From Paracyclopina nana (taxonomy: Eukaryota > Arthropoda > Copepoda > Cyclopoida > Cyclopettidae): a DNA stretch of 64,000 bases. A program made the position numbers and the translations under genes. Numbering within the stretch: the stretch's first letter is position 1; each line of letters begins with the position of its first letter. Below the pieces are notes generated by a model. The model did not search any database, had not been told where the DNA came from, and worked only from the letters and a program-made list of their open reading frames with translations. The DNA lies in assembly GCA_019096065.1 (NCBI GenBank), contig JAGUCH010000001.1, positions 17,298,001 to 17,362,000 on the forward strand, written 5' to 3'. Positions 20,568 through 56,140 of the stretch are shown piece after piece.

Positions 20568-27372
<6,805 letters not shown>

Positions 27373-27704
27373 GATTTATCCGAGATGATGATCCATTCCA
27401 ATGAGACAGCGAAGAAGAAAGCTACCACTGCATGCATTTACGCGATTTTTTGTGCCATCCTTTCCTCCTCAAAAGAGATGAGAAAAAAAAACAAGTCTGT
27501 GGTGAATTAATGGAAGCAACGACAATAGAGAGACACACACTTCTTCTGTGATACGTGGAGGACAAGATTAATTGCTGCTACTTAATTAATGCTAATTATT
27601 ATAAATAATAACTACTACGGCTCTTGTTGATGCATTTCTCCTGCTTGATCGTGTGGGTGCACACACACACCAACAATTCCATGATGATGAAGATGATGAC
27701 AATC

Positions 27705-29263: not shown

Positions 29264-32200
29264 ATGCCTGCGAAAATGGGATGGCTGAGGCACGTCCTCA
29301 CCGTTCTTTCAGTCGTCATTTTTGTAAGGACCTTTAAAATTCACCTTTTTACCTTAAAGCCATTATTCAAAAAACAATGCCAAATTATAGACAATCTGCG
29401 GTTGAAGAAAAGGAAATGCTTTTTGCTCTGGGTCAGCCTTTTATTTAAGTGAATTTTATTTGCATTTTAAAATTACATTCAAATCCTACTTTTTACAGAC
29501 CTCGCAGGCTCGACTTAGTAAAGCTTCACTAGGTCTTTCCATGTCAAAATCCTTCGTATGCAATCTTAAAAATAGCCCGGATTTACATTCCCGTTTTATT
29601 TTTAGTGAATTTTATTTGCATTTTAAAATTGCATTCAAATACTACTTTTTTATAAGGTCTTTTGAAAATGCCATCATTTTCATGCTACTAAAGTTCCCAA
29701 GGTCTCAAAAATAAAACCTAATTGCCTACCATCATGTCATTATCCCTCTAGATTTGGATTTGGGAAAAGTATTTAGGAAATTTCCTCCCATTCATTCTTG
29801 CATAGACCAAATACTGCTACGTACGCATATGCCATCAATTTGGCAATAAGGAACTTTGGAACAGATCTCAGCGCATATGGCGTTTTTATGTATGTTCTCA
29901 CTCAGAGAAACCGCGAAGCTTCATTGCAATTAGCAGCACAACTGAATTCTTTTCTTTAGGGCGAAAATAAACCTTGCTTTTAAGGAAGTGCACTTTTTTC
30001 TGATTAATGTCAAAAAAAAGTTGTCAATGTATCGAGGAGGAATTGAGCAATTTCCGGAGCTTATATGCCCATTATGGGATTCTTAAAGGAAATAGGCCAA
30101 AAAAGCACAGTAGCTTATTTGGTCTCATTTACATTTATTATCTTTTATTTTAATAATTCACAAAAGAATTTTTTAATTTTTGGATTTGAAAGTAGTTTTC
30201 GGGTGCATAATTCAGTTTATCGATTCGCCTCATTTTTTCAGCCACATACACATATAAATAGATATTGAATTTTAATGGCAAAATAATCCTCTGTGGAAGC
30301 AAAACCAACACTCCAGCTTCTTCTACCCACAACTTCTGCCAATTTTTTGCCTCACATTCATTGTTATTGATGGCTGCAATGAGGATGTAATTGGTAGATA
30401 TCGTGCCACCAAAAAAGCCCAGCTGTTAAATGTAATACCTTTTCATCTCAATTGCGTTATGGGCATTACAACGAGATATCTTGCACCATTTTTCACGAAT
30501 TGCTTTGTTTTTAATTGTTACAAAAGCAGGTGCATCCTCTGCTTGTAAAGCTCTGGTGATCACGAATTATGAAAAAGTTTGAATAGATAACATGATGCTT
30601 AATTGTCTCATCATATCTAGGCCAAATTGCATATACTTTTGTTTTACTATGTGGAAATTCTCGTCAAAGTGTTGAACCAGATTTTTTTGTATAGTAAAGC
30701 ACGCAAGTTCCCACGCAAGTAAAAACAAAGGGGCATAATTAGGTCAGTGTTATAGTACCAAGGTGTCACAGTAAATATTTATATCGAGCTGGGGATCATA
30801 AAGTAGGGCCGTAAAATCACAGTCCTCGCAGGCTCGGGCTAGTAAATTTGAAAATCCTCTCTCTTAAAATAAAAATGATATAACACACAAGGGAATTTTT
30901 CTTGGAAGTCTTCTTTGGTTTTTTGGCAGCTTTGCTTCATTTAGCCACGGGAATCGCCATTGACTCACATGAGCAATTAATGGAACTTTCCTTGGTAAAA
31001 GTCCAGCATTTTCCCTCTGGCGAAAGTTTTCTTCTTCTCGCCGTCGTCGTCAGCAATTATGTCCGCTATAATATAGCACAACTACTTTTTTCCCACAAAT
31101 AGAGAAAATGTAAATTCACACATATGTGATCATTACTACATAAAAGTATGCTTCAAATGGGGAAAGTTGTCAATAATCTGAGTGTACCATCGAAAATCGT
31201 TAATTAAAGATGAATTGGCTTATATAAGGGAAATCTAAAAAATGAAGCCTTACTTCAGATTTCAAATTATAGAAAAAATGTATTGAAAAAAGCAGCGAAC
31301 CGACATATTTAGGGCCTATCGTCTAATTTCCATTTTTAGGCACCCGGCTTGACTTACCACTCGATCCTCCGAGTCCATAGCATACTTTTATAAAAAAAAA
31401 TATTTTTTTTGAAGGGATGGCCATCTGTTACTCTCATTTTATTGAGTCATACTTTACTATGAAAGTGGTATACTTTTACCAGCATAAGTTTCGGATTAGA
31501 AAATCCCTTTGCTTTAATCTCGGTGAAAACCATAGAAGTTTAGCTGCAAATTGTGTGAAATGCCAACTAAATGGGAGAAATAGGACTGCATCAATAATAA
31601 ACTATAATCTTGAAATGTGTCCATTTTCAAGCTTGGAGAAATCGCAGATAAAAACATGTCATTAGAGTTTGGACAGGATATCGCAAAACCTGACGTCTTT
31701 GATATTTGGCTTTGAAAATTTGTTTACTTTTTTTTGCAGCTGATTGGCTGCATAATTATTGGATACATGGCATGGGTCTTGGCCACTTCTGTCACCGTCA
31801 GCAAATTCCTCGATGGGAGCTTGGTGAGGCTTGGAATGATAAAAAAGTTTAATAATATACGAATTTCGGTTTCACTGCAGGTGTTCACCTACATTGTCAT
31901 CACTCTGGGCTTCACACTGTTCTTCTCTGGCCTCATAGGCTGGGTTGGAGGGGCCTCAGAGAGCCCGTGCCTCGTACGATTTTTCCTGTTTGCTGTGGTC
32001 ATCTCCATGGTGGCGGAAATTGGCGGCATCATCTCCCTTAATATAGTCAAACTGGAAGTGAGTAGCGTCATGCCATCTGGCGGCATCTTAAAGAAACACT
32101 TGGGAGCTACATGAAGTTGAGCTGAGGCTACTTTTTTATATATATTATATGTTCATAAAGCTTCATTGATGGGCAATAAGTACATCATGTCTCTGGTGCA

Positions 32201-35200
32201 CGTTACGACCAGAATAGGACTTGATTGGACCCCTCCAGTGGAACCTGTGGAAACCGTGGAACCCGTGGAGCCACCAGAAGTCCGGAAGGTTGCCCATTCA
32301 CCGCTACATCACTACCTCAAAATCACAAAACCTCCTTACTCAAAACCACTCCAAACACCCTTTTTCATCTCCTCCAACTCTCTTATTATTGCTGCTGCTG
32401 CTGCTGCTACCTATGCGATTCACCTGACCTTGAGTGGAGAAGTCGCTAGCCATTGTGTGGAGGAGTTGCTAGCTGCTTCATAGAAGAGGACCTGCAGCTG
32501 CATAAGAACGGAGAGAAGCAGATGGAAGCTGATGGAACTTTCTGCAATGCAACGAGTGGAGAAGAAGGAGAAGAGTCGGGGAGTTCGAGGGGGGACTTCA
32601 GAGAAACAAGACATGGACCGAGTGCACATGGCCCATTGAGTGAGCTCTGCCCTGCTATTGTCCCACCAAAGTTCTCCAAAGTGTGCTGAGGCATGAAGAA
32701 GATGGCCACAAGAATATTTACTGCAGTACTTAATTCTTTGTATTTGCTGCCATTAATTTGTGTGGTGTTAAAAGCCGAGTGAATAAGACAACCTTGTTGA
32801 ACTGAGTTTGACCATAACTTGTATAGAGGTATCCTGGGCAGTTATGCACCCTAGTCTGGGGCTGTTGAGGCCGTTGAGGACGTGGGTAGGAGGCCCGACC
32901 ACTGGTCTACAGCACTGAAGCTTGCCATGTGATGTATCTCGCCATAGTTGGAGCACCGAGGCTGCGGCTTTGGGTCCAAGGCGGGTAGACATCCGGCCAG
33001 CACCCGGAGGCTGCGAACGGTACCGCGACCATGAAGCCGATGCTAACCATCCTAGGCTTCAGAGGGTGTGACCGTCGCACACCATTTTGGAGGCCCCGGA
33101 GGGATTGAAGGCCACTCTCTCTCCTAAAGGTTTGATAACCAAAACCCCATGAAGTCCCGGAAAATGTCTTGGTGTGGATCAGGATTCCTGCTCTGCGGCG
33201 CAGGTTGGGCCGCATGCTGATTGCGATCAGGGTGTGTCTACTACAGTACAAAAGCAAAATCCCGAAGGCTGACGAGCCGATGGGGGTCACTCCGATGGCA
33301 TTTGGGCCTATGTGGTGCGTAGGCTTTAGATTCCCTTAGGCCCAAATTGCGCATTGATGCCGTTGGCGGGTTGGAACTGGCGCGCGGGGAGTGCAAGAAG
33401 GTACAGGCCGTGACGTACCACCAGCCCGTTGATGATGTCTTCCATGGACCATTGTTATGATGATGGGCCTACACAAAGTAACAATGACACTGTCTTTCCC
33501 GGAGGTGAATGCATGCGTGCAGGCTCCGCATGGCATAGCTTGGAGTATGGGTGCCATGGCAGCCGGAAAGCCAGCCAAGGTGCAGGTTGCGACCTGAGCC
33601 TCTGTTGCCTATCCATAATGGGGCGAGTGAGCGCAAGAGTGTTGCGACACTAGTGGGTCTCGTCCGTGGGTTTGGCCACACAGATGGAAGAAGATGATGT
33701 AATCTATGACTTGCGAGTCAATGAACCCCAAATAGGCCACGCGTGGAGCCAGAGTGGGAGCCACAAAGGAAAATGCGTGTTTGGGGCCCAAAAAACTGGC
33801 TAACCTTGGACAAGTTGCCGAGGGCACAGGGAAGGTTGGCCGGCCCGCAACTCGAGGAGGAGTGGGCAAACTTTTATTTTTTCATTCACTGAGTCGACAC
33901 TGGTTGGCGAAGTGGCATACCTTTTTTGCGTAAAAAGTTGATGCACCTTTGTTTCAGAGACTTAGAAGAAATTACCATCCATACACCTGTTGGCACCAGT
34001 AGTGCCAAATTTTACTCCATCTTTCATATTGTAATAAGTGAGTGTGTGTATTTGTGCGTGCGTTTGTGTGTGTGTTTTGTCTTGGCCGCTCATAGCCTAG
34101 ACAAAAAATAAATAAACGAGCTTAGCAACTGCAACCTTTTTCTCTGTGTCACTTGACGCGGCGTAGTAATTAGGACAAGCTTCCCTGTGCTTTGAACAGC
34201 GTATAGCTTTTAATTCGGTATTACCGAATTTAGTACACACAGTAGTGTACTAAGACCAGAATATTGCGTGTGACTCCGTTGCACCTCTAAGAGATAAGAA
34301 ATAATTCGTGTGACTCCGTCACGCTTTTTACAAGATAAGAATGGCTAATCAGGATTCTAGGATCACTGGACCTACTCTGGCTGAGGAAGTTACGAAAGTA
34401 AAGGATCGATTGTTGCAACATCTTGGGATTAGTGAGGACACTTTTCAAGGGTACTTATCCCAATGCCACCCAAATGGGACCAGCAGGACTGTCTTGCAAA
34501 GATTTTTGCCACACGTTGCTTACCCTGAAGCACTAGAGTTTGTTACGGTAACCCCAGCACAAATAGCAGCTGTCTGGGATAGGACTCGGATAGTAATTGT
34601 TCCTAGGGAGCCAATTAGACCGTTGGATGATCATATTACGGCAATCATTAGGACTATGCCTCTTAAAGATCCAGTAGGCCAGGTTGTAAATGTGGTTAAA
34701 TATATTGATGCACTTGACCCTAATTCATTGACAAGCACGACCTGTGCTTTATTATGCATTTGTTTTGGTCTGGATGAGTTCCTAACTCGTATTGAGGAAA
34801 AGAAAGATCTGCAGCGTATCCAAGAAGTTGATGGAAGCTCCATGACCTACGCAATGTCAGGGACGCATGAAATGGTTGCGACATTGATATCCAGGAATTG
34901 GCTAAAGATACGGGCATTTGGAGATGGATTTTCTATTGTAGCAAGGCTTTATGGCCTACAAATCGATTATTTCCTAAATGAGCCGCTTAACCTGAAGCCA
35001 CAGAAAACTTCAGGCCAGAGTGTACATTTTCCAAACAATGAGACGAGTAATGCTGTTCCAGATATGTCCTCGATAGCAAGTCCACCTGGGACTAACCATC
35101 ATGAGTTCACTACAGGTGTTGATCTGAATGGCCAAAATAAGTCAGTCCTAACCTCGACTAAAATGAATCCTCGTGATTTGCACAACTTGACTAATTCTGT

Positions 35201-50200: not shown

Positions 50201-53200
50201 AACACCTCCACTTCAAAGGGGTCGACAGGAGCTGGGCCAAATCCAGGTCCACCCTCGGCTTCAGAAATGCCACTCTCAGGAATAGCAACAGTAGGACCTA
50301 CTGGGCCCGTGGTTTGAGAATCCACTAGCGCAGGATCCACCATTGATGGCTGGATTGGAACCTCAGTGGGAGCCTCTGTAGAGCTGCCCTCTGGAGTTAG
50401 AGAAACCCAGGCTAAAATGACCATCGCGAGTTGATTGGGATTGGAATATCTCTAGAAAAGTGACCAGCTTGGACGAAGTCCGATGGGAGAATGATCAACA
50501 TTAAGTGAAAGCTGAGAGTTGCAACTGCCTGTTGCACCCTCGCTACGTTTCTCGACCTAGGAAGTCAAAAATGTCCGTGCAACTCGACGATGAGCGTGCG
50601 CGCACGCGCCCATCTTATAAGGAAGTGGTATAAGTCCTGTTAACTTGTTCTTTTTTACCTAGACAAAAAATGACCTTGGGTTTTTTAAAAGGGACAACCC
50701 ACGCATTTAAATGCCCGAGAGTGTGGGGCATACCTGTAAAGATGTGTATAAAAAGGGCAGGTTACGGCCTTACAGCAACAGTCTGGAAATGAGCGATAGC
50801 TTGAATAGCCTCGATAATCTAAGGATGTCTCTGATCACCGAATCCATGGAAGGAGAATCTGCATTGGTCTCTATGATGGAGACTGATAAGACTGGAGAGT
50901 TCAACGAACAAGAGGTTAGTGAGCTCCTAAAGGATGATGAGCCAGTTATGGATCGCAACATGCCTGCTGTCAATATTGAGAACCAAGCCCAGAATCAGAC
51001 GACTAGGCACCAGGACCAAGAGGAACCCCTCGAGGTCCCATTGGAAAGGGTATCCTCCAGTTTGGGGTACCCATTGCCATTTGAGGATTTGATCAGGCCT
51101 CCCCACATGGAGGGTCTACAGGCCTATGCGAGGGAGGCGAGCCGGACCAGAGCTACTATACAGCAGCATTATGATGCAAGCCTGTTGAAGATAGCTACGA
51201 AAGAGGTCATGACTGTTGGAAAGGAGGTGCCTTTTGACCTAACGATTAGGATAAATGGAGAACCCTATGAACGGACCGAGCCTCGTAGGCCATTGAAGGT
51301 GAAAAACTTTGACTGCATTGAATTGATTATCGAGCCAGTGAGTAAAGGAGGGGAGATTCCCGATTTTCTTGTTATATTTCCGATGCTAGACAATCTACCA
51401 GTCTACAATTTGCCTGACAAGATGGAATATGACGAGAATGTCCATAAGTTGGCCAATGTCAGAAGTTGGTCTGCCGTCCAGAGCCCAACAGCTGTTGGGT
51501 ATTATGTCCATGGAATCCGTGGACAGGGTGGAGCTCAACTCCCTGTAGTAGTCTCCAAACATTATACCAAGCGAGGCTGCATTCAGATCATGCCAACATT
51601 GGACTCATCATTTTGGGATCCGCGGATGTTCCATGATTTGACGTCGCCTTACTTGCAACTGTATGTGGGACCGCCGTCCTGCCTTAACAATGGCGTGGCC
51701 CAAGCACCACGAAAATTGGACGTGAAGATCGATATGACCGCACTTCTGCCTACCATGGTAGCCCAGTTTGTGGATCGAGCCATTGGAACGTATCCGCAAT
51801 GCGTTAGGTACACAGCCGGGGCCAGGCCCCAAAAACTAGCCGCGTTCGTGGAGAAGTCTTGGCAACAAAAACCAAGGCGAGGACCTAGACTGTACGCCGA
51901 TGTAGCGCGCGGGCGCCCTTTTGGCGCAGGAACGAATGGACCAGACATTTTGCACGCTAAGCGCTCCAAAGTCGATAAGAATAAGGAGCGTGTGAACTAT
52001 CTCCTCCAGGCTAAAATGGAGGAAATGACCCCCAGCGACATCAAGGTATTCACTGAGGCGATTAATGGATTTGTCGGGCAGTTCTAAAAAATGAAATTAC
52101 CCTTCAGAATCGAATTGTACATATTGATAAAATACTTGGTTGTGGGCCAATACTCTTAACTTTTTACCATACATGTCGACATGCTATGATAATAAAAAAC
52201 CAATGGAAAAAAGCAAAGAGTGTCTAGACATAGTAAGGTGGCGTGCCCACACTTGTCTGGGTTTATAAGGAAAGTTAGCGGTCTTGGGGCCCATATAGTT
52301 TCTGATCAGAATTTGTGCTGGTAAGATGTTGTTTGAATTGGTCTTCATACTCACCCTTTTGGGATCTGGCACTTGGGGCCTGTCCAACTACCCAAATACT
52401 CAGTTCGTACTGGATGAGGCACTTTGCCATTCCGGACATGCCCTAGTTCCAGTTAGAGTGGTCCACCATCCTAGAATGGTGAAAAAGGCTATGGTGTTAG
52501 ATACGAAGGATTACAGTGGCCTTTTGCAATCAACAATTGGCGTCCTGAATAATATTGACACCGTGGTAAAAGAAGTTAAGGACAAGGAGGACTTGGTCCA
52601 TATTGGGAATATGTTGGCAGTTGGTGAAGAGAGTACCCCTAACACCATCGACAAAGCTTGCTCCAAACGTCAAGGGTTTGTACCATTTGCCCCTAAAACT
52701 TATGAAGACATGGACGTTTTTCTAGAACTATTACGTTATACGGCAAAGGAAAGCCCTCTTGCCACTAAGGTGACTTTATGTGCAAAGTTTCGAATTGTCA
52801 ATGAGGTACCTATGTCCTTGGATGGGAAAACCACATTTCCTCAAGTGGGGTATGAGAAAAAACCAGACGATGAGATAATTGCAGGTTACCCGTGTATCAC
52901 GGGGTATTTCACTGTGGGACAAGGGCCGAGGACCATGACGTCAGTTAAAGCCCATGCACCACACAGTGATGGGAAGGCAACGATATGTGTCCAAAATGAC
53001 TTTGTCATCACCCATAAGGACTTTGTCAAATCTGAATTGTCTGGGAGGAAAAGTTTCCTTGAAAAGGCCTACAACGCCGTGATGGCCCTAGCAGAATCAG
53101 GTAAATCGACGAAATTCACCGATGGCATGATAGCAAATACCACTCCACTGAGAGTACCACCGAAAGTTTCTTTGGCCTTTCGACTACTGAAAGGTTTTAG

Positions 53201-56140
53201 CAAGGTATTTTTGAAGTCTGGATTATTACCAAATGATCTGCAGCAAGTATTGTCATATGCTGACACAGTTATGCAATTTGCCAGAAATTTTGGGCAGGCA
53301 GGCACACGGTTCAGCTTACCAACTCTGGCGCATAATAGTGACAGAAATGCGGCCACCATTACTAATGTTTATGAACCGTTGGCGAACACTGAGCAGAGTG
53401 GAGACTTTGTCACTCAGGGAATAGTTGGGTATAAAGAAATGGACCCTACCCCTGAGGTCACATATCATATTGTGTCACGAAGCAAAAACGGATTCTTACT
53501 GCATGATAGGTATTTGACCCGCCGAAATGATCTAGTGTTTGTGTCTCGGGAAATACCCATCTATAGTGATTGCTTCGTTCATGACCATAATTTAACCGTG
53601 TGTGAAAACAAGGACTTTGACTTGACAGAAGGAGTCCAACACTGTGCTAAAGTACTTTTAGGGCTAGCTCTGGGTGACCCTTTTGACGCCTGTGAATTAG
53701 AGCCACTCAAAACTAACACGCTCACTGATGTGGGATGTGCTAATTATAAAGGGTTCTTAAATTTGGTCTCAAGTGCAATGATTAATAGGACTTGTTTAAA
53801 TGACTTCAAGAACTCGATGGTATTGGAACCAGGATCCTATCAGATCCTTAGCAATTGTAAGGTTTCCCTTGGAACTCAAAGTACTGGATACGAGGACTCT
53901 CCTTGGGAAAGTGATATGGTGAAGTTCTTTACAAAATTCCCTGAAGATGAACTTGGAGGTTTATTCAATAATTGGGAAATAATCCTGACGGTGAGCCTAT
54001 TGTCTGCAGCACTGGGATTCACGTGTATGGGCATATTGATTTGGAAAAGGCGGCGAGTATGCAGCCGATGTTATGATGATGGAGGCTATGTGAGACCTAA
54101 TACATCCCGCTCACGGCTTCGCTACAATAGAGGAGATCGCAAGAAAGATGCTGACCAAAATCAGCGCCTTACTGTGCGAATGAGTGGCCTGGGAGGCGCA
54201 ACGTTAGTATAATAACTGTATCAACCTTAATGTGATGTAAGCGATCAATGACACCTTTTTTATATTTTTAGAGCTTAAAATATTTCAAAAGCTGAAAAAG
54301 TTAGGGCCGGGGAATGATGGGCAATAAGTACATCATGTCTCTGGTGCACGTTACGACCAGAATAGGACTTGATTGGACCCCTCCAGTGGAACCTGTGGAA
54401 ACCGTGGAACCCGTGGAGCCACCAGAAGTCCGGAAGGTTGCCCATTCACCGCTACATCACTACCTCAAAATCACAAAACCTCCTTACTCAAAACCACTCC
54501 AAACACCCTTTTTCATCTCCTCCAACTCTCTTATTATTGCTGCTGCTGCTGCTGCTACCTATGCGATTCACCTGACCTTGAGTGGAGAAGTCGCTAGCCA
54601 TTGTGTGGAGGAGTTGCTAGCTGCTTCATAGAAGAGGACCTGCAGCTGCATAAGAACGGAGAGAAGCAGATGGAAGCTGATGGAACTTTCTGCAATGCAA
54701 CGAGTGGAGAAGAAGGAGAAGAGTCGGGGAGTTCGAGGGGGGACTTCAGAGAAACAAGACATGGACCGAGTGCACATGGCCCATTGAGTGAGCTCTGCCC
54801 TGCTATTGTCCCACCAAAGTTCTCCAAAGTGTGCTGAGGCATGAAGAAGATGGCCACAAGAATATTTACTGCAGTACTTAATTCTTTGTATTTGCTGCCA
54901 TTAATTTGTGTGGTGTTAAAAGCCGAGTGAATAAGACAACCTTGTTGAACTGAGTTTGACCATAACTTGTATAGAGGTATCCTGGGCAGTTATGCACCCT
55001 AGTCTGGGGCTGTTGAGGCCGTTGAGGACGTGGGTAGGAGGCCCGACCACTGGTCTACAGCACTGAAGCTTGCCATGTGATGTATCTCGCCATAGTTGGA
55101 GCACCGAGGCTGCGGCTTTGGGTCCAAGGCGGGTAGACATCCGGCCAGCACCCGGAGGCTGCGAACGGTACCGCGACCATGAAGCCGATGCTAACCATCC
55201 TAGGCTTCAGAGGGTGTGACCGTCGCACACCATCATTTTGATGGTTTATGATTTAGGAAAGGTCAAAAAAGCTTTAAAAATTGATAGATTGGGTCTTTAT
55301 CCAGCAGGAAAAGCTCAGACGAACTGATTTATGCCTTTTTCCGTTTGCTCCCAAGTGTTGCCTCAAAATTCCGCTAGGGCTCCTCTTCATCAAATATTTC
55401 ATCCAATGCCGTTGTTTACATGCTAAGAAGCTTAATTAGCCCTTAATTTTTCTACTCCTTCTTTGCTTAGAAGCCAGGAGCTGGAAATTGAAGTGCATTT
55501 CTCACTTTATAATAATGCTTTTTTCCAGTTTGACGACATTTTGGAATTTGGCTGGCAAGAGGTCAACCAAGGAACGAGGAACTTCATTCAGCAGAAAGTG
55601 GGTTAAGAAAGTTAATTTTTCCGCGAATGCTGATCTCTACTTAACCTGTTTTCAGCTGAATTGCTGCGGTTGGGATGGTCCCAAAGAGTTCGCGTACAAT
55701 TCCGAGCCCATCGATGACACTTGCTATGAAAACTCTAATTTTCTCAAGTCTCTAAAGCAAGAAGACTCATTCGCAGCCAAGAAAATGAAGCAGGTATAAA
55801 ATTATTTTCCCCCCTACATAATTATTTGATATAATTTAATAGGATGCTTGTGGGCCGAAACTTTTCTCGTGGTTCGAAGATAACAAGATTACTTGGGTAA
55901 CAATTTTGGCCTCGGTAGCCGCTTTGCAAGTCATGTGCATCGGCATCGCCATTTACATCTTGTCCAGAATCAAGAGACTGAAGAAACTGAGGTGAAATAA
56001 TTTTCGTAATAAGTTGACGCGCTTTAATTTTCTCATCTACTCGCAGAAATTCGCGGACGGCCTCGAAACGAAGATTGTACGACAATTCCTCGGATTCGAG
56101 TGGAACGAGCCACAATTTACATCATCACAACAGAATCTAA
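29264..56140 (+). CDS. Tetraspanin, host gene interrupted by a 23-kb intronic LTR element
   Basis: Four-pass membrane organiser protein. Seven coding exons, all GT-AG with matching phases: 29264-29323, 31740-31823, 31881-32057, 55529-55597, 55656-55793, 55843-55991, 56047-56140; about 256 residues. Exons 1-2 encode TM1; exon 3 encodes TM2 and TM3; exons 4-6 encode the large extracellular loop with the diagnostic CCG (NCCGWDGP) and further Cys residues; exon 6 encodes TM4 (WVTILASVAALQVMCIGIAIY) and a basic KRLKKLR tail. Intron 3 spans 32058-55528 but would be only about 400 bp without the LTR element and one copy of its target duplication. The element has the same orientation as the gene, so its LTR signals could truncate the host transcript. 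The reading frame itself is intact. The subfamily was not assigned. Confidence 0.88.
29493..29593 (+). repeat. Dispersed CTCGCAGGCTCG-type repeat, copy 3
   Basis: Second near-identical copy of the 28841-28943 repeat, in tetraspanin intron 1. It is bracketed by a duplicated AGTGAATTTTATTTGCATTT-type block (about 29448-29490 and 29604-29650), so the local sequence is a nested duplication. Confidence 0.75.
30817..30848 (+). repeat. Dispersed CTCGCAGGCTCG-type repeat, copy 4
   Basis: A short copy reading CAGTCCTCGCAGGCTCGGGC then TAGTAAA, in tetraspanin intron 1. It shares the core with the copies at 635, 28841 and 29493 but lacks their long 3' part. Confidence 0.5.
32163..32166. repeat. Target site duplication, left copy (TCAT)
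   Basis: TCAT lies immediately before the TG of the 5' LTR and is repeated immediately after the CA of the 3' LTR (55233-55236). A 4-bp duplication is normal for Ty3/gypsy-type integrases. Confidence 0.85.
32167..33084 (+). repeat. 5' long terminal repeat
   Basis: 918 bp from TGATGGGC to CACACCA, matching 54315-55232. It contains four near-tandem copies of a CCnGTGGAA word at about 32235-32269 and a (GCT)6 run at about 32391-32408. No convincing TATA box or AATAAA was identified, so the U3/R/U5 limits are unknown. A degenerate AATAAG lies near 32781. Confidence 0.95.
33088..33105 (+). promoter_or_regulatory. Primer-binding site, tRNA-Thr-like
   Basis: Three nt after the 5' LTR the sequence reads TGGAGGCCCCGGAGGGAT. 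Its reverse complement ends GGGGCCTCCA, which resembles the 3' end of eukaryotic tRNA-Thr (acceptor strand, U discriminator, CCA). The match further into the T-stem differs at about two positions from the vertebrate form I know, and the host tRNA sequence would decide it. Confidence 0.7.
34037..34043 (+). promoter_or_regulatory. Candidate major splice donor in the leader
   Basis: A GTGAGT hexamer starting at 34038 after AATAA. It is the best donor-like match I found in the leader. It could feed the acceptor-like sites placed just before the ATGs at 42877, 44961, 50789 and 52326. Confidence 0.4.
34212..34252 (+). promoter_or_regulatory. Two abutting perfect stem-loops upstream of gag
   Basis: 34212-34230 is a perfect palindrome, AATTCGGTA-T-TACCGAATT. 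It is followed directly by TAGTACAC-ACAGTA-GTGTACTA at 34231-34252, with 8-bp perfect arms and a 6-nt loop. The position, 90-130 nt before the gag ATG, is where dimer-linkage and packaging stem-loops sit in retroviruses. Confidence 0.7.
34267..34341 (+). repeat. 40-41-bp direct repeat ending at the gag start
   Basis: CGTGTGACTCCGT occurs at 34267-34279 and 34307-34319. AGATAAGAA occurs at 34292-34300 and 34333-34341, the second overlapping the A of the gag ATG. The two units differ only in the connecting sequence. Confidence 0.7.
34341..36905 (+). CDS. gag: Gag-like polyprotein
   Basis: 854 residues from an ATG in strong context (AAGATAAGAATGG). The C-terminus holds two zinc-knuckle-like clusters: CxxCxxxHxxxxC at residues about 800-812 and CxxCxxxHx7C at about 830-845, followed by a basic TRPARK tail, fitting a nucleocapsid. 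A Gln/Glu-rich helical stretch precedes them (about 735-780). The long N-terminal and middle part should contain matrix and capsid, but no motif is recognised by eye. It is longer than most Ty3/gypsy Gag proteins. The stop codon overlaps the next ORF's ATG in TAATG. The role as the structural protein of the particle is inferred from position and zinc knuckles. Confidence 0.85.
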   Translation: MANQDSRITGPTLAEEVTKVKDRLLQHLGISEDTFQGYLSQCHPNGTSRTVLQRFLPHVAYPEALEFVTVTPAQIAAVWDRTRIVIVPREPIRPLDDHITAIIRTMPLKDPVGQVVNVVKYIDALDPNSLTSTTCALLCICFGLDEFLTRIEEKKDLQRIQEVDGSSMTYAMSGTHEMVATLISRNWLKIRAFGDGFSIVARLYGLQIDYFLNEPLNLKPQKTSGQSVHFPNNETSNAVPDMSSIASPPGTNHHEFTTGVDLNGQNKSVLTSTKMNPRDLHNLTNSVTLPPMEVVHRMVQKMLSGGHLNIQELNTVKAYYTKMHDASTANKIIASAQITAKHMVGAKVESIFSKNLERTLSIVDAATKERMVPETDVIYDESAPISERLKLINTDEIKDVESARRVILQMVDPNLSSGKKLIEMQKLFSVLSTRDEFTSLQKQILAEGYLKTPEISVAAGVSADTSRSIYDPTTMRGYIAAPTNGHVKYASSQSMKEIRHKYTKKFDLHSSSLTAENIINFLDYMANEAGRQHWSHAALLTAMCEASSQNTSEYFKGMAGEGKDGMELLWQDIFNYTQFVRKEDPYFLIQEMIRKPTECFTATLKAILRLRMKIHSTTIGDGGDAHAVSEAISDGFALLGRHWPQNYQSLVNKYNDYLLRANIPARSLHAYNIMMNLIGSDLGTYVPRDVDRAHKEERLPMVPNMRAKPRIAMVEATEEEVLDSASTMSAASGRSQRSAKIINELQSELARANFELSRQAVEVAMMKAESPSEKINRLGKTFNIDTSKLPEGNPLQTNGCLFCNQLHYATQCTNYPNTNLTSIRNDGTLCPLCKGLHLEFRGEQCWKTRPARKQ
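36905..38374 (+). CDS. pro: Membrane-anchored retropepsin-like aspartic protease ORF
   Basis: 489 residues starting at the ATG inside TAATG, in the -1 frame relative to gag. Catalytic motif ALFDSGA, with D197-S-G-A, and a downstream hydrophobic LLMIGNSLL match the retropepsin fold; DSG in place of DTG occurs in many retroelements. Two hydrophobic segments lie at about residues 77-97 and 102-120, upstream of the catalytic domain, with few charges, so the enzyme may be anchored in a membrane. An acidic stretch (DSDSDEDDD) follows near 355. The C-terminal part has the spacer-like sequence often found between protease and RT. The frame ends at TAA 38372-38374, just after the pol frame opens at 38367. 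Confidence 0.82.
   Translation: MGPSTKTPNKNDKDSYILPSFMRGECNKEVGRAYFDYLKEQSVKNAEIMTRGSEDKKALVLAIRGRKSRFVHQHTMTVIEISIILFAITICQYCLFGWDYWPITVICSGAIIALWYYLVKGSTSDEQKTCSNDGIVTHLASVNANEAEPVTHFEPLPNPELEDDVLSIYSLKLHNVCERYFIPVEITGKIRLHALFDSGAMVQIISRTLVKLIEDKIGYTLPRVETNYVIKNFNGEEFPGNEAVSIQVAFGNRVLIRQAVFLVSDCDTLLMIGNSLLVDNNVRMTSKDGKHFMDFPGKSKHKKIPLLLSKEAFYPVAINEGITLLPGEEVTTMASLPHDLPVISNDIQIDSDSDEDDDLGRTHHQRNVYSGLVDKYLNFMPSNEYRGVTSEGALTAVTRKGTFPVNIGNNTEDPIYLNAHAVIGRARIVKKQKFKSTVAAHVANISLKALEHEMESCYCNYLDSHVIVQFTDINGLSLLICIFSMPMSH
38367..42833 (+). CDS. pol: Pol: reverse transcriptase, RNase H, integrase
   Basis: Open from 38367 (after TGA 38364-38366) to TAG 42831; the first in-frame ATG is only at 38481. 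Because it lies +1 to the protease frame with an 8-nt overlap, it is probably made by +1 frameshifting near the CAT TAA stop. Residues counted from 38391: about 1-370 unrecognised extension with an HGCSCKPC cluster; RT with YVDD at 562-565 and the connection-like KFIGMTNW, typical of Ty3/gypsy; RNase H with D730, E773, D799; integrase with a His/Cys zinc-binding region ending CMHC, and catalytic D1149, D1210, E1250. D-to-E spacing is 39 residues, longer than the usual 35. Makes and integrates the proviral DNA. All catalytic residues are present. Confidence 0.92.
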   Translation, partial: AIKGSHKPLISRKGNYVFISANQSDGYEEITDVIISKFMKREKWDELPWAVIVPGHKLLSGEQKRIVIKMNMMVDKLKVVWLKYKYICPPCMTIALCPIESYLNGMDRVIITMMIHEYENYPLAYQRNELDKYFELNVLGAHGIMFKLSNNVELIFHVPSEHAENIGYLTTLMYIIIGQLRYQNVADDVWIRTLMDGDVHVGDPLCMATTAALLVLSGLQMYPDDLTKEDIKTKFGKFIPFVLEPHGCSCKPCLAKNMGIKVPLKSFTTIYEGPIVDTSVRQTVLKSPSELDLVSASLELSKDERNNQKLYDEVYNLLLKFPSEFDPLRVLNGVAGYTFPLKPETILSMDLEHIPDEVREDFRDLLIEYKTIFSEDPRSYRLWNVEPMKFQLKDDKPLVPKVFNMSEYETTQVDRKIALMLSSGLIEIVDKSLNRYSACPCFLTSRPNDEKLPMKQRKPRLLVDLTSFNKNLIFTTSEHIVPPIPTLLGMLSNSCLMSSFDVTSGYDNLPVDSDSADMCCFAVTSPRSIYRSVFLKSKSCLQGIAIAPRMFAELLQQALNPEILPFTCVYVDDLVVACKNLGKPRPATLDDYIRHLGDLRKLFQSLKDLNALLQIKKTQLGVKEATVLGHLISIDENGIMTMRMPDKFRSAFDDFPIPTTKKQLQKFIGMTNWLSQYCPNMATYTAPLLDVLQTAQGKTGKFTFTAFQEKCFYKVIDEIKTGMSLALPRFKEGYLVVDSGVISTSALLMEVNEDGKAVCVGAHSARFPLSVCLSYHSFQREALGVLTMINHFKSILFAYERLVIVTDCLSIASVLASSFTGKDAFTHRLAARIYSLPVAWKLRAVPRTEVEVVDVLLNKYHQTPEGETIFYAPYSIAGQVTKDIYANKYPLPDAIKDKVLTTQELLTHVYDTLVNSGTMSKTLLQKRLHCLNDKWVDMIGTKPPFVHDDTSTLLQAKHDDDEFLEDEILSKLSHSFHGEADFDSPVNHIENNLRVDTVTVKRRISPHLPGITRNLLIKLQQNCEETQKIINLIMLSPPEKVPLDVAVKYRVLDGALLVIRKNVKLPFSVATNTKVYMSMPNCVYLMACIHLLHNHLGSKKTNTLFTHSMYSTYSARISRIIMGACMHCALYRQANTRFVGKGRFRIPTQPWELVMIDLAKFDDTLVKGSSAKDLLVFVDVYSKMIIAKPLLDAKYKQVANAMEEVISLFGVPKTLLADNGAQLTTNKALQRLVDRYKIKELCHYRTLSPYKHSNAYAENAIRIIRSALVLNSNSYNMRLCDVFKTSIYAINNRPLTYLAYTDDKGVKITPTPFSLFFDKMPFYHLGRDVFEILSESEDKIHKAEWRQRMREYDLEEQFHLEKMKATERPSFKPEIGSLVLVIKHPINKQRYKFMDDLFEVIDIGQHSTVTVKPYLYDGLTREVSLDHVKLYRFHELYRFLPEKLSNLLKRPYTPEEILRKKARNEVIEFLEGAALKVMIIVCGSYKGL
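42877..44880 (+). CDS. Retroelement accessory ORF 4, disordered Pro-rich protein with internal duplication
   Basis: 668 residues from ATG 42877. The frame is open from 42808, overlaps the pol 3' end, and is +1 to it. A splice-acceptor-like TTGATTTCACAG ends at 42867, 9 nt before the ATG, so a spliced mRNA or reinitiation are both possible. An N-terminal helical, charged segment is followed by a long Pro/Ser/Glu-rich region with low predicted order. Near nucleotides 44148-44235 and 44461-44550 a 30-residue block is repeated: P-hydrophobic-R-x-LP, then LRxRK, then YR-x-LAG-x-R-x-Y. The C-terminal 100 residues are again charged and helical. I recognise no family. Position after integrase and the basic repeats would suit a nucleic-acid-binding or assembly role, but that is speculation. 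Confidence 0.7.
   Translation: MDTEPSAIHQTYKRSGSILMQKAASLFKPSDILRIQEENKQLVQKQWEQYDRKKLEEKYLADNAGNNILHKEASDSLSDTGTDDFIEQAIALSANTGPNEAFYEDMLALSQRGPPTFAEMAQQERLYPNLPSVKPDHISTPDRSNVSEGTLAGVSPVKWAFRGQYRDQCVPDIPESPEKYHTPDQSMSATPNKDNDNIEEIVEKAASFIAPSKFDTDLESLSAGLESMQLALPTDPFGGNTHDDENESSDSDDTTTIYYTARKNLRRTPLTKSIKQNVQKAIDIVRRQLELSPRKRPPSPPIDNPMEGPSAPKPEIYGAEGGEPQVRYTIMKSPVRQPDLQPRNSELPNAGVPQTVPSTNVLEHFSAKVTPLGDLAMTENEHLAHPSTPEVTHPTVRLTSPVVPQPGTQKPPEAAVRAPYEPEKLSPLRFLPHNLRRRKNVNYRSLAGLREYNKNNVPAGPPAIVQPDPLEALTRPEAALTAEQNTSPLQNVQQLLDQPSSSAATPIAGSKEPESSAAVQPTVEPEISEPTPIRILPRRQLRERKETVDYRELAGIRKYGKEKSKAGKAQKYFPNIPRIAPLDREEKEFARVRFTNTNQRPDQKERELLEEVIPNWKLNKNMAAVHDYIQFLKATGMDHQDDSNINEMKKLRLTYDELYKLAFKKFK
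44961..45263 (+). CDS. Small sense ORF 5a of the retroelement
   Basis: 100 residues from an ATG in strong context (CCAAAATGG), 6 nt after an excellent acceptor-like CTTTACTTTGTCAG (ends 44954). Cys-containing and basic, with no recognised family. An overlapping ORF in the -1 frame (45230-45469) continues protein-like sequence. A GTATGT donor-like site at 45201 and TTTTTACAG acceptor-like site ending 45342 lie inside, but joining them gives a stop at once. Whether the two ORFs form one product is unresolved. Confidence 0.5.
   Translation: MGAPFYQPSAPKIILCNTSCGLQVVRLTKRSYNTNGQYNFACPSVIYDIHKGNDKLLKNTLTARKRLTKHTFCSSLAVLKVCIKMMENDGCHKALDLDFL
45230..45469 (+). CDS. Small sense ORF 5b of the retroelement
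   Basis: 79 residues, overlapping the end of ORF 5a by 34 nt in the -1 frame. Composition is protein-like, ending with an aromatic and basic tail (YYYSRR). A poly(A) signal AATAAA follows at 45490. It may be the C-terminal half of the ORF 5a product after frameshifting, or a separate protein, or chance. Confidence 0.35.
   Translation: MPQGIGFGLPLRLVQPFNKPNLACFDKINEVCVGSFYSIDIDGTNNFVLFPDKYRCKSRVDRYLHVLAPYYYSRRSSLR
45490..45495 (+). terminator. Sense-strand polyadenylation signal after ORF 5a/5b
   Basis: AATAAA about 20 nt after the ORF 5b stop, at the boundary where coding switches to the minus strand. If used it would also end genomic transcripts early, so its activity is uncertain. Confidence 0.35.
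45569..46104 (-). CDS. Antisense gene C of the retroelement, two coding exons (tentative)
   Basis: On the minus strand, an untranslated exon ending CAG before GTAAGTATG (46471/46470) could join the acceptor TCCCTTTTTAG at 46105, placing ATG 46100 four nt into the next exon. That frame is open to about 45906. A further strong acceptor CTCATTTCAG precedes 45862 and an open frame runs to 45569, with Cys residues (YCEGYC) and N-glycosylation sequons (NTS, NHS, NIT), as in a secreted or envelope-type ectodomain. The donor joining the two coding exons is not certain: the only phase-compatible one seen is a weak GTATCG. No minus-strand AATAAA was found nearby. Function unknown. Confidence 0.45.
46105..46545 (-). 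promoter_or_regulatory. Candidate promoter, first exon and intron of antisense gene C
   Basis: TATATATA at 46538-46545, next to a run of ten or more C on the minus strand, lies about 70 nt upstream of the donor CAG/GTAAGTATG at 46471/46470. A start about 30 nt after the TATA box would give a short untranslated exon of about 40 nt. The intron would be 46105-46470, which reads non-coding. Confidence 0.4.
46808..47950 (+). repeat. Five dispersed copies of a 20-22-bp motif
   Basis: Consensus TCAAGGCCGAGCTGGAATGC, often preceded by GCA and followed by AGRGCTATAAT. Copies at about 46808-46830, 47692-47713, 47728-47750, 47840-47863 and 47929-47950, each with one to three differences, in an otherwise non-repetitive stretch. 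They lie between antisense genes. Protein-binding sites, RNA structures or relics of a decayed tandem array are all possible. Confidence 0.7.
47265..47498 (-). CDS. Antisense small hydrophobic ORF (tentative exon)
   Basis: About 77 codons on the minus strand encoding one or two strongly hydrophobic segments, with a run of Ile/Leu/Val over the last 35 residues. No ATG starts it, but the acceptor-like TTTCTCACATGTCAG near 47540 lies in the open frame, so it may be a last exon. The stop codon overlaps an AATAAA poly(A) signal (47261-47266), an economical arrangement that favours a real 3' end. The upstream exon was not found. It could encode a small membrane protein; chance is the alternative. 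Confidence 0.35.
   Translation of the reverse strand: MFSITQILHQKRGESCGDCKIAEFHHLFYLTICLIFVHFEPFHLLVHLAVISGIIITLVILILLTLMQRFILFLVLA
47500..48180. other. Non-coding spacer in the antisense block
   Basis: No convincing ORF on either strand. It contains four of the five copies of the 20-22-bp dispersed motif. Confidence 0.5.
48194..48903 (-). CDS. Antisense gene B: spliced single-pass membrane protein with alternative acceptors
   Basis: Exon 1 48903-48877 (9 codons, ATG 48903), exon 2 48805-48647, exon 3 from 48570 or 48588 to a TAG at 48364-48366, then a further GTAAGT donor at 48364 and an acceptor TTATCTTTTGCAG before 48302. AATAAA lies at 48194-48199. The donors of exons 1 and 2 are GTAAGT, all in phase 0. 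With the acceptor at 48570 the product is about 130 residues: short N-terminus, Pro/Ala/Thr-rich ectodomain with a CPPC, a hydrophobic segment (ATYYVVVLPALVWV) and a basic tail. With the acceptor 18 nt earlier, a TAG enters after five codons and the membrane segment is lost. Splicing of the last intron would make TAA at the junction, leaving the protein unchanged. GC-rich, unlike gag and pol. No family recognised. Confidence 0.72.
48904..49074 (-). promoter_or_regulatory. Intergenic spacer before antisense gene B
   Basis: 170 bp between the poly(A) signal of antisense gene A and the ATG of gene B. An AATAAAAAGAGG-like A/T element lies at about 48985-49000 on the minus strand and could serve as a TATA-like box. 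Nothing else is apparent. Confidence 0.3.
49080..50424 (-). CDS. Antisense gene A: three-exon single-pass membrane protein, 304 aa
   Basis: Coding exons 50424-50056, 49988-49653 and 49584-49375, all phase 0. Donors are GTAAGT and GTAAGG; acceptors are CACCTCTTCCTTACAG and CACCTTTTCAG. AATAAA follows at 49080-49085. The exon 1 frame reads a Thr/Pro/Glu-rich extracellular-type region of about 90 residues and then the first half of a membrane segment (VMGWIGLGASIGMAL). Exon 2 starts with its second half (ILLGMLVYFCVW), so the helix is only complete after splicing, strong support for the intron. The tail is basic (SRWCRRF), then Pro-rich, and exon 3 is Arg-rich then acidic. The ATG sits after an in-frame stop, and an acceptor-like CTTTTCTAG occurs 27 nt upstream, so an untranslated exon is possible. 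No signal peptide is obvious. No family recognised. Confidence 0.82.
50425..50788. promoter_or_regulatory. Divergent promoter region between antisense gene A and sense ORF 6
   Basis: A palindromic TTATAAG at about 50615-50621 reads as TATA on both strands. On the minus strand a TCATCGTC initiator-like site lies about 30 nt downstream, 160 nt before the gene A ATG. On the plus strand TATAAAAAG at 50747-50755 lies about 30 nt before ACAGT at 50778-50782 and just before ATG 50789. An acceptor-like CGGCCTTACAG ends at 50775, so splicing is an alternative route to the same ATG. Confidence 0.5.
50789..52087 (+). CDS. Retroelement ORF 6, unknown 432-458-aa protein
   Basis: The frame is open from ATG 50711 (458 residues). 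I prefer the internal ATG 50789 (432 residues) because a TATA-like box and an acceptor-like site both lie between the two. An acidic, Ser/Glu-rich N-terminal 110 residues is followed by a compact central region with beta-rich composition and several Pro/Tyr motifs (about residues 150-370), then a basic Arg/Lys stretch (KPRRGPRLYADVARGRPFG) and a short helical C-terminus. No signal peptide or membrane segment. Order before env is like regulatory or accessory genes of complex retroviruses, but no family is recognised. Confidence 0.7.
   Translation: MSDSLNSLDNLRMSLITESMEGESALVSMMETDKTGEFNEQEVSELLKDDEPVMDRNMPAVNIENQAQNQTTRHQDQEEPLEVPLERVSSSLGYPLPFEDLIRPPHMEGLQAYAREASRTRATIQQHYDASLLKIATKEVMTVGKEVPFDLTIRINGEPYERTEPRRPLKVKNFDCIELIIEPVSKGGEIPDFLVIFPMLDNLPVYNLPDKMEYDENVHKLANVRSWSAVQSPTAVGYYVHGIRGQGGAQLPVVVSKHYTKRGCIQIMPTLDSSFWDPRMFHDLTSPYLQLYVGPPSCLNNGVAQAPRKLDVKIDMTALLPTMVAQFVDRAIGTYPQCVRYTAGARPQKLAAFVEKSWQQKPRRGPRLYADVARGRPFGAGTNGPDILHAKRSKVDKNKERVNYLLQAKMEEMTPSDIKVFTEAINGFVGQF
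52260..52270 (+). promoter_or_regulatory. TATA-like element before env
   Basis: GGTTTATAAGG at 52260-52270, 56 nt before the env ATG. An acceptor-like TTTCTGATCAG ending at 52309 lies between it and the ATG. Only one of the two, if either, need be used. Confidence 0.35.
52326..54212 (+). CDS. env: Envelope-like type I membrane glycoprotein
   Basis: 628 residues. N-terminal signal peptide (about 1-18, with a LVFILTLLG core), a large ectodomain with about 15 Cys and N-glycosylation sequons (for example NTT, NLT, NRT), a single membrane helix at about 551-573 (starting EIILTVSLLSAALGF) and a roughly 55-residue basic tail rich in Arg. The position directly before the 3' LTR and this topology fit a retroviral envelope protein that would allow transfer between cells. 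I could not place it in a known fusion-protein class: no obvious RxxR site followed by a fusion peptide is seen. The reading frame has no break. It may have been acquired from another virus. Confidence 0.8.
   Translation: MLFELVFILTLLGSGTWGLSNYPNTQFVLDEALCHSGHALVPVRVVHHPRMVKKAMVLDTKDYSGLLQSTIGVLNNIDTVVKEVKDKEDLVHIGNMLAVGEESTPNTIDKACSKRQGFVPFAPKTYEDMDVFLELLRYTAKESPLATKVTLCAKFRIVNEVPMSLDGKTTFPQVGYEKKPDDEIIAGYPCITGYFTVGQGPRTMTSVKAHAPHSDGKATICVQNDFVITHKDFVKSELSGRKSFLEKAYNAVMALAESGKSTKFTDGMIANTTPLRVPPKVSLAFRLLKGFSKVFLKSGLLPNDLQQVLSYADTVMQFARNFGQAGTRFSLPTLAHNSDRNAATITNVYEPLANTEQSGDFVTQGIVGYKEMDPTPEVTYHIVSRSKNGFLLHDRYLTRRNDLVFVSREIPIYSDCFVHDHNLTVCENKDFDLTEGVQHCAKVLLGLALGDPFDACELEPLKTNTLTDVGCANYKGFLNLVSSAMINRTCLNDFKNSMVLEPGSYQILSNCKVSLGTQSTGYEDSPWESDMVKFFTKFPEDELGGLFNNWEIILTVSLLSAALGFTCMGILIWKRRRVCSRCYDDGGYVRPNTSRSRLRYNRGDRKKDADQNQRLTVRMSGLGGATLV
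54301..54314 (+). promoter_or_regulatory. Candidate polypurine tract
   Basis: AGGGCCGGGGAA immediately before the 3' LTR. It is purine-rich but interrupted by CC, so a weaker tract than usual. Position is the main support. Confidence 0.4.
54315..55232 (+). repeat. 3' long terminal repeat
   Basis: 918 bp, same sequence as 32167-33084 on block-by-block reading, including the (GCT)6 run. Identity between the LTRs implies little time since insertion, since they are made from one template at integration. Confidence 0.95.
55233..55236. repeat. Target site duplication, right copy (TCAT)
   Basis: TCAT directly after the 3' LTR, pairing with 32163-32166. The pre-insertion intron would read AAGCTTCATTTTGATGG here. 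Confidence 0.85.

Follow-up and report, generated by a model that had tools for sequence, protein, structure and literature searches.

Organization of the element

The window, that is, the whole 64,000-nucleotide stretch of Paracyclopina nana DNA that was analysed, contains a complete LTR element, the features of which are collected in Table 1. An exact direct repeat is present in the window sequence (32167-33085 and 54315-55233), and the two LTRs delimited within it, read as TG...CA, differ at 0 positions over 918 bp each and enclose an internal region of 21,230 bp. Together with the 4-bp TCAT duplication at the borders, this bears out an earlier note on this DNA, made from its letters, which had described two identical 918-bp LTRs around 21.2 kb. 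The first 20 bases after the LTR, where the putative primer-binding site begins, are identical in all ten copies that were fetched from the genome.

The insertion is flanked by two Tetraspanin matches of the same orientation (31716-32114, E 3.2e-7, and 55440-55799, E 0.023, both under the curated cut-off), one on either side, and thus the element apparently sits inside an intron of a host tetraspanin gene, in the same orientation as that gene. The window also contains a host gene that encodes a protein kinase domain along with an extended coiled-coil-like part (20686-27404; Rho-kinase-like by eye), an adjoining ABC-transporter-like gene (by eye) at 13.9-18.5 kb, and a La-domain gene at 61.9 kb. 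A search of Rfam gave no match.

Table 1. Features of the LTR element and its borders (positions in the window)
Feature	Position	Strand	Basis or remark
Target-site duplication TCAT, left copy	32163..32166	.	Matches right copy
5' LTR, 918 bp, TG...CA	32167..33084	+	Direct repeat
Putative primer-binding site, begins TGG, 3 bases past LTR	33088..33105	+	Sequence
gag-like ORF, 863 aa, first ATG 34341, two CCHC-like zinc knuckles	34314..36905	+	Motifs
pro part of polyprotein, DSG protease motif, two hydrophobic segments	36899..38374	+	Separated from pol here by a frameshift
RT-RNaseH-integrase part of polyprotein	38367..42833	+	A second frameshift separates it from ORF4 here
ORF4, C-terminal 690 aa of polyprotein in other copies	42808..44880	+	Frames elsewhere
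Less conserved region between ORF4 and R2	44881..48363	.	No gene support
R2, predicted 3-exon gene, 130 aa	48364..48903 (exons 48903-48877, 48805-48647, 48570-48364)	-	Splice sites, frame, dN/dS
R1, predicted 3-exon gene, 304 aa	49375..50424 (exons 50424-50056, 49988-49653, 49584-49375)	-	Splice sites, frame, dN/dS
Stretch between R1 start and second possible ORF6 start, divergent; proposed internal promoter	50425..50788	.	TATA element
ORF6, 458 aa, second possible ATG 50789, no known homologues	50711..52087	+	ORF
env-like gene, first ATG 52326	52299..54212	+	Hydrophobic segments, Cys, glycosylation motifs
3' LTR, 918 bp, identical to 5' LTR	54315..55232	+	Purine-rich AGGGCCGGGGAA just before
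Target-site duplication TCAT, right copy	55233..55236	.	4 bp

The gag-like gene and the polyprotein

The gag-like ORF gave no match to Pfam, and the first of its two knuckles has the pattern CX2CX3HX4C, which we take to be of BEL-like type in gag. The BEL/Pao elements are associated with the Pfam domains Peptidase_A17 and DUF5641; no BEL-type Pfam domains were listed for the present element at E up to 1. The gag stop overlaps the ATG of the pro frame (TAATG). The two hydrophobic stretches of the pro part are located at the N-terminus of the polyprotein, ahead of the protease, which is an unusual site for a membrane anchor.

In the window copy the frame downstream of gag is broken by two frameshifts, and copies in which it is open exist elsewhere in the genome. 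A genome search with pol, in which 31 of 508 candidates were scored, placed 12 of these 31 matches in stop-free frames of 2646-2669 aa, and in the corresponding search with ORF4 (64 of 137 candidates scored; 58 of 68 rows used for gene order) the matches at those 12 pol loci report identical frames. Since these long frames are shared by pol and ORF4, and the lengths of the three parts sum to 491 + 1488 + 690 = 2669 aa, pro is included as well, and pro, pol and ORF4 are one polyprotein of up to 2669 aa in other copies. The main catalytic motifs, which the earlier note had described as intact, are indeed present, although the polyprotein that carries them is not intact in the window copy. The same note had listed gag, pro, pol and at least three extra sense ORFs. 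The first three stand, and ORF6 is the only clearly separate extra sense gene; ORF4 turned out to be the end of the polyprotein, and a small ORF at 44937-45263 gained no support.

Pfam matches and motifs identify protease, reverse transcriptase (RT), RNase H and integrase in the Ty3 order. The curated Pfam cut-off was passed by RVT_1 only, the integrase match scoring 31 vs. 32.6 and those of protease and RNase H also remaining below. ORF4 gave no Pfam match at all. The spacing of catalytic residues counted in the integrase is D-60-D-39-E, that of Ty3/gypsy integrases being D-D-35-E. In a comparison of the RT with solved structures, the RT of Ty3 was the first of 12 matches (1.6e-22). Among 7996 scored candidates of the protein database, pol has 20 distant relatives of 20-26% identity, and judged by these few and remote relatives the pol lineage is divergent; no relative was found among the viral contigs searched. 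Only transposase-type matches, located in the integrase, were obtained with NCBIfam (best 4.9e-8, far under its cut-off). A tRNA-Asn gene called by ARAGORN at 44398-44478 on the reverse strand lies within the ORF4 coding sequence and is probably a false positive.

The predicted spliced genes of the reverse strand

R1 and R2 are predicted to encode single-pass membrane proteins: R1 has one hydrophobic segment, which extends across the exon 1/2 junction, and R2 has one that is only moderately hydrophobic. Neither has a known homologue in Pfam, and the part of the element at 44.9-48.4 kb is largely poorly conserved. Both observations would be compatible with reverse ORFs that are chance shadows in a region serving as a spacer or as a sense regulatory sequence. 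The conservation of splice sites, the distribution of stops and the pattern of substitutions all speak against such an explanation, and we regard it as very improbable.

We aligned 21 copies (the one of the window and 20 fetched ones), most of which are close relatives. The GT and AG dinucleotides at all eight splice sites of R1 and R2 are kept in each of them. The predicted spliced frame is open in 17 of the 21 copies in the case of R1 and in 19 in the case of R2, and broken in the remaining four and two; in the R2 genes of copies L018 and L030 the exons have odd lengths, and the frame is open only in sum. The ATG of R1 is kept in 21/21 copies and exon 1 contains stops in 0/21, while intron 1 varies in length between 61 and 73 bases and contains an in-frame stop in nine copies. 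Intron 2 of R1 is roughly as conserved as the R1 exons. Splice sites of close copies are partly kept by descent, and therefore the weight of the argument is carried by divergent pairs.

The dN/dS ratios were calculated for seven R1 and seven R2 copies out of the 21, which were picked for open frames. For R1 of the window copy compared to those of the divergent copies L026, L028 and L029, they were 0.18, 0.09 and 0.15, with changes concentrated on third positions; dS in divergent R1 pairs is 0.6-1.5, near saturation for the method, which makes these ratios rough. Three close pairs of R1 gave values of 0.21-0.35, and seven pairs of R2 gave 0.04-0.21. When R1 exons of the window copy and L028 were read in the five other frames, each frame contained 8 to 17 stops, so that only the R1 frame is stop-free; the dN/dS was above 1 in four of these frames and 0.25 in the one whose third positions coincide with those of R1. 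As judged from these substitutions, the reading frames of R1 and R2 show protein-level selection. Coding by the reverse-strand block of genes claimed by the earlier note is thus supported by splice sites and dN/dS, but in the form of two predicted three-exon genes and not of a run of plain ORFs.

It may be asked whether antisense transcription itself matters here, rather than the proteins, in that it would supply a regulatory or silencing RNA by which the element is controlled. The accessible part of a relevant paper (PMC7264820) considers regulatory roles of antisense RNA in plant elements and in others. The strong constraint that R1 and R2 show at the protein level would be unneeded for such a role, and we consider it unlikely as the main explanation; RNA and protein functions could also both hold.

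Within the poorly conserved region upstream of R2 on the sense strand there is a conserved patch at about 46.6-47.2 kb. Its section 46562-47161 retains 66-82% identity even in L030, a divergent copy, and might have a regulatory function or act as an RNA element.

ORF6 and the env-like gene

ORF6 is preceded by a gap of 5.8 kb after the polyprotein, and the env-like gene begins 7.4 kb after the polyprotein. Hydrophobic segments at both ends of the env-like protein correspond to a signal at the N-terminus and an anchor at the C-terminus, and the protein contains 16 Cys residues and four N-glycosylation motifs. A genome search (69 of 123 candidates scored) yielded at least 71 env matches, 34 of the 71 covering residues 1-637 without a stop; in the search with ORF6, 92 of 111 candidates were scored. 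The dN/dS values of 0.12 and 0.11 in the two computable pairs of env-like genes indicate that this protein is constrained, two remoter pairs being saturated.

Homology searches did not associate either product with known proteins. No protein-database match was found among the scored word-sharing candidates, which numbered 7995 for env and 4450 for ORF6. No Pfam family was assigned to either of them, and for seven env proteins neither the F-type Env characteristic of errantiviruses nor any other family matched below E 0.15, although a remote structural relation to such an Env may exist. A search of solved structures with the env profile gave unrelated matches only (best E 0.023), and one with the ORF6 profile gave no match. 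Single-sequence structure predictions of ORF6 and env had pLDDT of 32-33. The name env, as well as all roles proposed for these products, is based only on position and hydrophobic segments.

Copies of the element in the genome

The assembly that was searched comprises 92 Mb in 10 contigs. It gave 80 matches to a cuticle domain of arthropod type, which points to an arthropod host, and no match to two nematode markers, SL1 RNA (Rfam, 50 of 27,226 candidates scored, and a pattern allowing 2 mismatches) and cuticle collagen. The LTR search, in which 40 of 126 candidates were scored, so that its counts are lower bounds, revealed at least 41 LTR matches; all 41 were used for pairing and form at least 18 pairs. 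The spacing within 15 of the 18 pairs is 21,990-22,637 bp, and in the remaining three it is 28,087, 29,068 and 48,135 bp. Both LTRs have equal bit scores in 16 of the 18 pairs. Each of the ten pairs that were fetched has TG...CA termini, 0 mismatches between its LTRs and a private 4-bp target duplication, which rules out an assembly join as the source of the family and indicates that the family moved recently. Copies of the element in the genome number in the dozens. Several copies of both this family and the sister family described below are clustered at C4:857386-888212 and C8:6607282-6676000, some of them in opposite orientations, and these are likely nested or clustered insertions. Searches for the element family gave 0 matches in 14 control genomes, in a series that had no positive control.

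To compare gene order, we used 55 of the 71 env matches, having dropped 12 that belong to the sister family, two on C10 and two extra pieces of one locus. R1 lies at most 8 kb from env and opposite to it in strand in 53 of the 55, and on the same strand in none of them. The same 53 have ORF4 upstream on the env strand, and the two exceptions are devoid of both R1 and ORF4. Conversely, a search with R1, in which all 88 candidates were scored and 56 of 83 matches were used (one per locus), found an env partner for 53 of the 56. The copies lacking the genes at 42.8-52.1 kb, which the earlier note had named as grounds for refutation, are therefore at most a small minority of these loci, and its other concern, namely that the two LTRs might belong to separate elements misjoined in the assembly, is answered by the shared spacing of LTR pairs and by their matching duplications.

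A unit of this size, well over the usual 5-10 kb, might still be considered an artefact, in which assembly error or nesting has joined one element to another or to an insertion nested in it, and the LTR pairs at 48 kb (one) and at 28-29 kb (two) suggest that nesting probably did occur in some copies. The uniform spacing of most pairs, the private duplications, the gene order common to almost all env loci and the presence of reversed genes in the sister family are all contrary to this explanation. We take it to be extremely improbable, and for the family in general it has been refuted. As proposed in the earlier note, the element is a single unit, about 23 kb long and with genes on either strand, and many copies share this arrangement.

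The sister family

The sister family is 43-45% identical to the main one in env, 46-49% in ORF6 and 76% in pol. In four of the six sister stretches analysed, the C-terminal domain of R2 was found reversed in the same gap, with 64-72% identity. The fifth contains two short R2 matches (E 0.002), and the sixth, L036, none. Matches of R1 at E below 1e-4 are present in two of the six stretches, and exons arranged as in R1, including a hydrophobic stretch where exons 1 and 2 join, are recognized by eye in five, neither R1 nor R2 being recognisable in L036. The latter stretch (C7:5678550-5688549) contains a long degenerate tandem repeat at the expected place of R2, upstream of an ORF6 with stops. The reversed R2 and R1-like exons of the sister family suggest that the two-strand layout probably predates the split of the two families.

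The origin of this layout is a separate question. The block of R1, R2, ORF6 and env could be a cassette acquired from another virus or from intron-bearing host DNA, which would make the element a composite and would be compatible with the model proposed below. The introns and a separate promoter region suggest a source in nuclear-transcribed DNA, and the difference between the conservation of pol and that of env and ORF6 indicates that the modules evolve at different rates. On the other hand, the block is old enough to be common to both families, and homologues of ORF6 and env outside this genome were not found among the scored candidates, so a donor cannot be named. We hold such an origin to be a tentative possibility, somewhat short of an even chance.

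Proposed expression and exchange of the reverse-strand genes

The stretch between the R1 and ORF6 starts contains the TATA element TATAAAAAGGG at 50747, which is kept in all nine copies displayed (of the 21 aligned), and a minus-strand TATA-like site for R1, kept in seven of those nine. Divergence of R1 differs from that of its neighbours: between the window copy and L026, dS is 0.91 in R1 and 0.10 in R2, and six copies whose env genes are 91-97% identical have R1 genes of only 59-63% identity. Variants of R1 appear to have been swapped between copies by recombination, and such mismatches would be expected from template switching between element genomes.

We consider it highly probable that the locus contains a recent, 23-kb LTR element, likely of Ty3 type, with two reverse genes, predicted to be spliced, between the polyprotein and an env-like gene, and that it is likely an endogenous retrovirus expressing both strands. 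The promoter of the 5' LTR would give rise to genomic RNA, from which gag and the pro-pol-ORF4 polyprotein would be made, the latter possibly by translation starting anew at the TAATG overlap. A divergent promoter inside the element (50.43-50.79 kb) would drive ORF6 and env rightward and R1 leftward. The introns of R1 and R2 would be spliced in antisense RNA only, and the sense genomic RNA would retain the cassette, including the introns, through reverse transcription; as their orientation implies, this would allow intron-bearing genes to survive that step. Being small single-pass membrane proteins by prediction, R1 and R2 may act with Env and ORF6 in particle assembly, exit or entry.

A broader proposal is that the element represents a lineage of ambisense animal retroviruses, in which a reverse operon of spliced membrane-protein genes is driven by a bidirectional internal promoter, the orientation preserves the introns, and R1 surface variants are swapped between copies. 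We see this proposal as evenly balanced.

Transcription, reverse transcription and packaging have traditionally been considered to keep LTR retroelements within about 10 kb, as stated in the part of PMC6431247 available. In the present family, elements of 23 kb have transposed repeatedly and recently within a genome of 92 Mb. The family may also serve to test directly whether an element that passes through RNA can keep intron-bearing genes by reversing them, and which function small membrane proteins encoded on the reverse strand have in a retrovirus. If the above model holds, the usual descriptions of retrovirus-like elements in animals would be exceeded here in both size and two-directionality, the extra genes likely serving particle building or spread.

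Comparison with known elements

Traits of the Ty3/gypsy group include LTRs of TG...CA type with target duplications of 4-6 bp and the order protease-RT-RNase H-integrase. With duplications of 4 bp in ten of ten pairs and domains in this order, the element described here is, on the basis of its sequence, likely of Ty3 type. Its TG...CA ends and 4-bp duplications differ from the CG...CG termini and 3-bp duplications of Troyka, animal LTR elements that were once put in Metaviridae/Gypsy (PMC12440569, partial text).

Among elements of arthropods, the errantiviruses (gypsy, ZAM; Metaviridae) resemble it in host, in Ty3-like pol, in LTRs and in an env-like gene before the 3' LTR. Insect endogenous retroviruses are described in the available part of PMC12992720 as encoding gag, pol and an F-type Env. 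In contrast, the env-like gene of the present element is without a Pfam match and lies 7.4 kb past the polyprotein, with R1, R2 and ORF6 in between. In size it is closer to the planarian Burro elements, which exceed 30 kb and encode, besides accessory ORFs, a single huge polyprotein whose region of env homology is placed between gag and pol; they are likewise gypsy-like giants of an animal and are thought to be proviral (PMC6431247, partial text). The in-frame env between gag and pol that is typical of Burro is absent here, the env-like ORF being the last one before the 3' LTR, and reverse-strand spliced genes are not mentioned for Burro in that part of the paper, the text of which nowhere uses the word antisense.

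Extra ORFs in antisense orientation, located downstream of pol and before the 3' LTR, have been described in plants and a fungus, and a promoter upstream of gene23 has been reported in Grande (PMC7264820, partial text). The plant elements Grande, RIRE2, Retand and PvRetro13 have an antisense gene in the same interval as R1 and R2, and in the copepod element, too, an antisense coding ORF is kept there in most copies (53 of 55 env loci, in addition to the dN/dS data). However, the antisense proteins of plants are described in the same source as having no clear similarity to others, and some of them are nuclear, whereas in our case there are two genes with introns for predicted membrane proteins, placed beside an env-like gene. 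The mussel Steamer-like element MchSLE-1, with gag-pro-pol only, produces antisense RNA from its 3' LTR and has an antisense ORF of 67 aa (PMC10974842, partial text). This LTR retrotransposon of an animal resembles the present element in having an antisense ORF, and its two strands are both transcribed, as is proposed here.

Foamy viruses have an internal promoter and make Pol apart from Gag, and we know of no reversed genes in them or in foamy-like elements. The HBZ gene of HTLV-1 is a spliced antisense gene that overlaps other genes; R1 and R2 differ from it in occupying a stretch of their own. The HBZ antisense RNA begins in the 3' LTR (PMC10974842, partial text). Fish foamy-like endogenous retroviruses reach up to 17 kb and, as in our case, are enlarged by accessory ORFs (PMC6431247, partial text), but the RT of the present element is closest to that of Ty3 among solved structures.

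The earlier note had contrasted the size of the element with the 5-10 kb normal for Ty3/gypsy elements and had placed multiple extra genes on both strands outside what was known for metazoan LTR elements. Given the parts of the above sources that were available, gigantism is not new, having been described in Burro, and neither are antisense ORFs, as shown by the elements of plants, a fungus and a mussel; it is their combination that stands. In the literature searched, no element of an animal was found to combine env with neighbouring reverse-strand genes that are spliced and conserved, but the partial coverage of that literature makes this weak evidence of absence. The novelty of the present element beyond the known ones is the conserved, intron-bearing pair of reverse-strand genes beside an env-like gene.
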